64,000 nt of DNA from contig NZ_JATM01000002.1 of the NCBI RefSeq assembly GCF_002003665.1, positions 62,001 through 126,000 of the forward strand, read 5' to 3'. The DNA is from Bombella intestini (GTDB lineage: Bacteria; Pseudomonadota; Alphaproteobacteria; Acetobacterales; Acetobacteraceae). Both the position numbers and the translations under genes were made by a program. Under the pieces are notes generated by a model that searched no databases, was not told the origin of the DNA, and saw nothing but the letters and a program-made list of their open reading frames with translations. The stretch's first letter is position 1, and each line of letters begins with the position of its first letter. Shown in pieces: positions 46,620 to 47,666 of the stretch.

Positions 46620-47666
46620 ATGGAGGTGTTTTCACGGCGGTCCTCTGTACTTCCTCCACGGCGGTCAGAAGAGACATGTCCTGTCATGGAGCCGGAGCAA
46701 GTACAGGCTTTGTTCCGGCGGCGTCTTACGGATATCTGTGCCCGTTTTGCAGAGTGGCAGGTGCCTATCATTGTTAGTGGGGTGATAGGGGACGTGCCAC
46801 CGGATCGCTGGCGTCGTCGAGAAGGGACGCCTCTGTTAGATGGGCAGACAGGTACATCTCTTTTGCTGGATATGTCCCCCTCTTTGTTGGAGGGGGAAGG
46901 GCTGCATGCGGGGGAGCATGTCCGTGTCTGCGGCCTGTTGAGGGCGCATCTGCACCGGGGGCAGATTACTCCTCGCTTTGAAGTTTTGTCCATCATACGG
47001 GATGCCGAAGAGGCGGCGGAGAGGCAACGAGAAGAGCTTTTGCAGCTTTTGCGGGAGATGCCCCCGCAACGGCGTAGTTTTCCCGTTCGTGAGGGGGCTA
47101 GGATGCTGTTGCTGGGTGTTGGTGTCGGGTTGGAGAGGCTGAAGGCTATTCAGCAGTCGCTCGGCGGTTTCTGGACAGAACGGAATGTAACGGTACGGTC
47201 GATACCGGATCATGGTGGCTGTGCAGAGCTTTCTTATCTGCATGGTGTGGAGCAGGATGTTATCTTGCTGGTGATTGCTGGAAGCCGTCTGGCCGAGATG
47301 GATTCTTCACCTTTCGTGAAAGGCCTGTTGCAATGTCCAGTCTATCGTGTCTTAGCGTATGATGTTGCAGCTGATAGTAGTGATACGGCTACCACCATCC
47401 TACCGCACATGGTGGACTGTTTTTTCCAAACAACGGCGGAGGCAGTCAGTTTTATTAGGCAGCAGAGCGGCGTAGTGCGGCGGCATCAGGAAGAAGAGCG
47501 GGCGCATCAGGAAGAGTTGGCCGCCTTACGGGCTAGCCTTGCCGCTCTGGCTGAGCGCCCTCGAGATGGTAGAAGCTCGTCAGCCCTTCTGCTGTTTTCA
47601 GTCGGGTTGTGTCTGGGAGGTGGGTTGGTAGCGATGGCCCTGTGGGGGCTGCCTCATCTTTTCTAG
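46620..47666 (+). CDS. XseA-like protein with C-terminal membrane anchor
   Basis: A 348-residue protein I do not recognise as a named family, but whose order of parts recalls exonuclease VII large subunit. An OB-like start (IIVSGVIGDVPPDRW, then GEHVRVCGLLRAHLHRGQITPRFEVLSI) covers about 40-125. A Rossmann-like middle follows (ARMLLLGVGVGLERLKAIQQSL; then DVILLVIAGSRLAEMDSSPFVKGLLQCPVYRVLAYDV; then MVDCFFQTTAEAVSFI). After that come a short coiled coil (HQEEERAHQEELAALRASLAAL) and one hydrophobic segment (ALLLFSVGLCLGGGLVAMALWG). XseA catalytic residues are not obvious. GGAGG precedes ATG 46620. Confidence 0.6.
   Translation: MEVFSRRSSVLPPRRSEETCPVMEPEQVQALFRRRLTDICARFAEWQVPIIVSGVIGDVPPDRWRRREGTPLLDGQTGTSLLLDMSPSLLEGEGLHAGEHVRVCGLLRAHLHRGQITPRFEVLSIIRDAEEAAERQREELLQLLREMPPQRRSFPVREGARMLLLGVGVGLERLKAIQQSLGGFWTERNVTVRSIPDHGGCAELSYLHGVEQDVILLVIAGSRLAEMDSSPFVKGLLQCPVYRVLAYDVAADSSDTATTILPHMVDCFFQTTAEAVSFIRQQSGVVRRHQEEERAHQEELAALRASLAALAERPRDGRSSSALLLFSVGLCLGGGLVAMALWGLPHLF

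Follow-up and report, generated by a model that had tools for sequence, protein, structure and literature searches.

The gene described here lies at positions 46620-47666 on the forward strand of the window, by which we mean the whole stretch of 64,000 nucleotides of Bombella intestini DNA that was analysed (contig NZ_JATM01000002.1, positions 62,001 to 126,000). It begins with an ATG at 46620, ends with a stop codon at 47664-47666 and encodes a product of 348 aa. It is not a chance ORF, given orthologues with 97 to 42% identity to the window protein (the closest named match, from Bombella favorum, at 97%), a conserved gene order and dN/dS values of 0.14-0.18. The limits proposed for it in a first-pass annotation are correct. 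The start M-[E/D]-[V/A]-F is shared by 21 of the 21 rows of orthologue alignment A2, and the G+C content is 0.566 in the gene and 0.554 in the window. No sigma-70-like promoter was found in a search of positions 46400-47800. The gene and its main parts are as follows.

46604..46613, +: purine-rich ribosome-binding stretch 5' of the ATG (read from the sequence)
46620..47666, +: whole gene, encoding a predicted tail-anchored XseA-superfamily protein without an active site, 348 aa (ORF, hhalign, Foldseek, alignment, hydropathy)
46689..47003, +: N-terminal helix and OB-like domain, residues 24-128 (model, hhalign to canonical XseA)
47094..47432, +: Rossmann-like former catalytic domain, residues 159-271 (model, hhalign, Foldseek, VIA-align)
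47433..47555, +: long helix with coiled-coil character, residues 272-312, well conserved (model, conservation)
47580..47660, +: predicted C-terminal membrane helix, residues 321-347, hydropathy peak 323-341 (hydropathy, model)

The gene is flanked on one side by an ArsC-family gene (46146-46508) and on the other by a convergent glycosyltransferase-like gene (47700-49346), and close to it are genes that we take, from their sequence, to encode GAPDH and PGK. Its chromosomal place, adjoining a small lipoprotein-like gene, GAPDH and PGK, is the same in 15 of 15 compared loci, which represent 14 genomes (L004 and L046 come from one genome). The dN/dS ratios of the gene against four orthologues are 0.142, 0.153, 0.176 and 0.182, two of the four being rough because dS exceeds 1; those of its neighbours range from 0.061 to 0.186 for the glycosyltransferase-like gene and from 0.056 to 0.197 for ArsC, and are at most 0.042 for GAPDH and PGK. 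These values indicate a protein that is fast-evolving yet constrained.

Some features of the surrounding sequence can be noted separately. The glycosyltransferase-like ORF overlaps the small lipoprotein-like ORF (49240-49749) by about 100 bases, and its true start is probably further downstream, as a shorter ORF in another Bombella genome (G007) suggests. The listed start of the GAPDH ORF at 49812 is probably too early (49812-49856), since the G007 orthologue has an in-frame stop there and its own ATG matches a later start, MAVKIAING. Upstream, at 38746-43840, are hopanoid biosynthesis-like genes, presumably hpnH, hpnI, hpnJ and hpnM to judge from their translations, whose order is kept in several relatives.

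Relationship to the exonuclease VII large subunit

XseA is the soluble catalytic partner of XseB. The first-pass annotation saw in the window protein a far-diverged relative of XseA, and would have given the idea up had a profile search shown no relation. By itself the protein gave nothing significant against Pfam, NCBIfam, PHROGs or the PDB sequences and no match to PF02601 up to E 10, and a Bombella-only profile showed no relation to canonical XseA in hhalign (probability 0.4). Orthologues from other genera answered differently: three of eight further members scanned (L038, L039 and L041) pass the PF02601 cut-off with E values of 1.1e-13 to 2.2e-14, and a more distant member, L083, matches it with E 2.8e-19. 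The sequence of E. coli exonuclease VII (8TXR) is found by L038 alone at E 7e-4 and by profile A3 at E 4e-6. As the Pfam-passing orthologues occupy the same chromosomal place, the homology carries over to the window protein. In hhalign, a 29-row family profile (A4) and a 14-row canonical XseA profile (A5) align over 247 columns that span the OB-like and catalytic domains, with probability 96.8 and E 2.1e-10. The kinship is thus borne out by PF02601 in the orthologues, by the profile alignment and by the structural match described below, and a negative profile result taken as refutation would have misled, the link being visible only through orthologues of other genera.

An AlphaFold model of the window protein (mean pLDDT 80.7, pTM 0.54) has OB-like strands at residues 47-127, a domain of alternating strands and helices at about 159-271, a long helix at 272-311 and a C-terminal helix at 321-347. 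The order of OB-like domain, Rossmann-like domain and coiled coil that had been read from the sequence is seen again in the model, and hhalign to XseA covers the first two of these. Structure prediction, which had been proposed as a second check, gave a concordant answer: the best PDB match of both AlphaFold models examined, one with pLDDT 73.8 and the other that of the window protein with pLDDT 80.7, is 8TXR (E 2.4e-12 and 3.2e-12, respectively). When superposed globally, the models fit 8TXR poorly (TM 0.25-0.38, rmsd 15-19 Å), so that it is the domains and their order that match and not their mutual placement; among the 50 VIA-align matches listed, only the range of 8TXR covers both domains. 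The Rossmann-like domain (159-286) also superposes on type II dehydroquinases with Z values of up to 11.3, nearly as high as the 12.6 of 8TXR, but these cover one domain only and show no sign of kinship beyond the fold, and we have set them aside as a shared fold.

The resemblance to XseA ends with the catalytic-type domain. PF02601 matches of the orthologues stop at profile position 158-161 of 315, and the window family lacks the half that follows the catalytic subdomain in XseA, having one long helix and a membrane helix instead; the window protein has 348 aa, as against 397-528 aa in the 14 canonical XseA rows. The C-terminal half of PF02601 comprises the XseB-binding helical part and an end domain, and XseB would not be expected to bind the window protein.

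Active site and C-terminal helix

We take the catalytic residues of XseA to be D155, R205, H238 and D241, numbered as in the 8TXR sequence; the title of that entry (H238A) bears out H238. A joint alignment of 45 rows (14 canonical XseA and 31 anchored proteins) has D-R-H-D in all 14 canonical rows. Among the anchored members one (L083) has D-R-H-D and 11 have D-R-H-N (nine rows of genus g78, which is probably Acetobacter, and two plasmid rows); given the D-to-N change, these 11 may or may not be active. The active site is lost in 19 of the 31, the window protein included. The arginine is kept in none of the 19, and single aligned letters persist in some of them; L033 and L036, for example, have the H and the D. 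In the window protein the four positions, all read from the 45-row alignment, are the following.

47145..47147, +: A176, where XseA has D155
47274..47276, +: I219, where XseA has R205
47364..47366, +: V249, where XseA has H238
47373..47375, +: D252, an unsure match to XseA D241, next to a gapped loop

Hence the suggestion that the protein lacks the catalytic residues was well founded. In comparisons that left out near-copies (15 of the 19 inactive and eight of the 12 site-bearing rows were used), identity is lower over the Rossmann-like domain than over the OB domain in 103 of 105 inactive pairs (31.8 versus 48.2% on average), in 0 of 28 site-bearing pairs (64.1 versus 47.1%) and in 5 of 91 canonical pairs (61.3 versus 42.6%). 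The helix at 272-312 reaches 55% identity in the inactive pairs; the linker helix, spacer and membrane helix of the inactive rows are conserved no better than the Rossmann domain. This pattern indicates that constraint has moved away from the former catalytic domain, as would be expected if catalysis had been lost while binding, assembly and anchoring were kept.

The membrane anchor that the first-pass annotation placed at the C-terminus is equally apparent from hydropathy. The C-terminal helix of the window protein has a 19-residue Kyte-Doolittle score of 2.28, the next-best segment scoring 1.26, and the peak ends 7 residues before the C-terminus; the preceding 20 residues contain four K/R and two D/E, and no charged residue follows. 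A terminal hydrophobic segment is present in 31 of 31 anchored members, the two plasmid proteins included, with a 19-residue mean of 1.86 to 3.37 and an end 0 to 13 residues from the C-terminus, and in none of the 14 canonical XseA rows, where hydropathy is at most 1.72 anywhere. With one hydrophobic helix at the C-terminus and a large N-terminal part without another, the window protein has the hydropathy of a tail-anchored protein, a call that is a prediction and not a localisation. The flanking charges point to a cytoplasmic location of the OB-like and Rossmann-like domains. Because the active site, the C-terminal half and the anchor-free state were all looked for and found wanting, we do not file the window protein as an exonuclease VII subunit; it is a member of the XseA superfamily.

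Distribution and mobile relatives

At E up to 0.1, a profile of the Bombella orthologues (A1, nine rows) reached further genera and matched 31 of 299 genomes of the family, 19 of them near full length and 12 weakly and over a short range. With profile A2 (21 rows) and E up to 0.001, the gene was found in 30 of 397 sampled family genomes and six of 102 genera, of which 10 (out of 11 sampled) belong to the window's genus, 13 to genus g78 and seven to four other genera; in a class-wide search of 289 genomes A2 matched the window's own genome only. Profile A3, which includes site-bearing rows, had matches in 257 of the 289 genomes of the class and 258 of the 299 of the phylum, and among the matches listed all but the window gene and genome G929 cover part of the profile, mostly 200-290; when a motif filter was applied to 51 such loci (L001, L088-L090, L092-L110 and L112-L139), 27 passed as canonical XseA. 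The match in G929 is full length and is not counted as new, since its coordinates fit the Sulfuricystis plasmid already in A3. Two single-protein scans of viral contigs matched none, and phage records gave two partial matches. Weak non-orthologous matches were inspected at four loci and looked unrelated; from the translations we take L015 to be a DUF58-like protein next to a MoxR-like ATPase, L020 to be a frame antisense to a porin-like ORF, and L018 and L026 to be DEAD-box helicases.

One sampled Bombella genome, G007, cleanly lacks the gene, with its flanks intact: the ArsC and glycosyltransferase-like genes are 291 bases apart there, as against 1191 in the window. The gene is therefore dispensable. 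No such gene was present in the stretches beside GAPDH in seven other family genomes, one of which (G399) has a relaxase-adjacent copy elsewhere.

The anchored members form one clade separate from canonical XseA (support 100/100, 45 rows). The full tree unites all inactive rows (94/98); when the Rossmann columns are removed, the second g78 group is placed with the site-bearing g78 rows (two changes), and a single inactive clade is not rejected (p-AU 0.30). The active site thus appears to have been lost in one or two events. The deepest anchored rows, which all have the active-site residues, are the plasmid rows and L083, and the tree tool flagged these as being on long branches.

In G399 the start of L083 is 16 bases downstream of a relaxase gene (PF11843, PF03432; DUF3363). 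After L083 come an antitoxin-like ORF, a ParE-like toxin gene, a TraG-type coupling protein gene and TrbB-, TrbC-, TrbE-, TrbJ- and TrbL-like genes, those without a Pfam match being named presumptively from their translations. L083 shares the layout and C-terminal anchor of the window family and is 42% identical to the g78 orthologue L038, but it keeps all four active-site residues, stands second, after the relaxase, in a TraG-Trb cluster and is not at the chromosomal core place. In record L086 of this cluster, the ParE-like toxin gene (PF05016) and the overlapping antitoxin-like ORF lie at 9482-10067, directly after the anchored XseA gene.

The two plasmid members come from Sulfuricystis pSTJ1 and Azospira pAZI09, of which one is mobilizable and one conjugative, and are annotated as exodeoxyribonuclease VII large subunit. 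They too have the same layout and C-terminal anchor; they differ from the window protein in keeping D-R-H-N and in having PD-(D/E)XK and PRTRC neighbours, and are 28 to 29% identical to L083. On both records (L084 8692-9579; L085 8702-9589) the anchored XseA-like gene points away from an adjacent PD-(D/E)XK gene, which on L084 is DUF3799 by Pfam, and there are PRTRC genes nearby. A mobile origin would be the simplest reading of these three long-branched records.

Possible functions

The reading that we prefer, with a probability of roughly one half, is that the window protein is a tail-anchored pseudonuclease in a membrane-bound assembly, where it would bind single-stranded nucleic acid without cutting it. 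The homology, the predicted anchor and the loss of residues are very nearly certain components of this reading, and the proposed nucleic-acid binding has about an even chance of being correct. The process served might be DNA uptake, conjugation control, control of exonuclease VII or transport. The protein is separate from the cell's exonuclease VII large subunit, and its ancestor was likely a membrane-anchored, active-site-bearing protein on conjugative elements, whose gene would have entered the chromosome next to the GAPDH and PGK genes in some acetic acid bacteria. One g78 group keeps D-R-H-N, whereas a second g78 group, Bombella and three other genera have lost the site and retained the OB domain, helix and anchor. 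We infer oligomerisation, the cytoplasmic side, nucleic-acid binding and the mobile-element origin alike. Against the binding step, the N-terminal and OB part of the window protein is not positively charged (13 K/R, 14 D/E), canonical XseA being similar; the poor superposition on 8TXR, the nearly equal dehydroquinase scores and the dispensability shown by G007 also count against the reading as a whole.

The fold might instead have been reused for a role apart from nucleic acids, in which the protein would assist membrane transport or serve the envelope. An amino acid permease gene is directly upstream of the anchored XseA gene in eight of nine loci examined (L051, at 5972-7294, and seven others; identified by Pfam at one of them), at a distance of 23 to 46 bases in three loci. 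However, the permease is missing from that place in L055, in the window and in another six Bombella loci, which represent five genomes, an ArsC gene occupying it in the window and those six, and in all of these the anchored gene is kept; with the OB domain conserved as well, we consider such a role improbable.

Slightly less probable still is a membrane-bound regulator that pairs with canonical XseA through the domains that both have, and either retains it at the membrane or keeps it off. Canonical xseA, which had been recommended as something to look for elsewhere in the window's genome, is indeed there, as is xseB; both were found in all 17 genomes searched, 16 of them carriers of the anchored gene. 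This presence in every carrier searched favours the regulator reading, as do the shared domains. Such pairing is disfavoured by the absence of the XseA half after the catalytic subdomain (PF02601 matches stopping at about position 160 of 315), and the window gene is not linked to xseA or xseB.

That the protein is still a nuclease and uses other residues is a poor prospect: the single letters kept in rows such as L033 and L036 might hint at it, but the arginine has gone from every inactive row, and nearly all inactive pairs show faster divergence in the former catalytic domain than in the OB domain. Chance or a merely common fold as the source of the likeness to XseA, which the failure of the window protein and the Bombella-only profile to find XseA might suggest, can be dismissed, as PF02601 is passed by orthologues whose gene order is conserved and in which the RGGG and GH motifs align in register.

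A broader scenario, which we offer as speculation and think rather unlikely to hold in full, is that a membrane branch of exonuclease VII arose in conjugation machinery, acting on transferred single strands at the secretion channel, and was domesticated by acetic acid bacteria, becoming in several lineages a core-genome pseudonuclease that would hold single-stranded DNA at the inner membrane undegraded. Among the literature matches listed, which mostly leave out subscription papers, none describes a membrane-anchored or inactive XseA.

In summary, the window protein is a case of remote homology that is overlooked by single-sequence and genus-level profile searches. In a tail-anchored branch of the XseA superfamily, with a site-bearing form in a relaxase cluster and an inactive form that selection maintains in bee-associated Bombella and its relatives, nature would have separated binding from cutting, and exonuclease VII would gain a testable link to DNA at the membrane.
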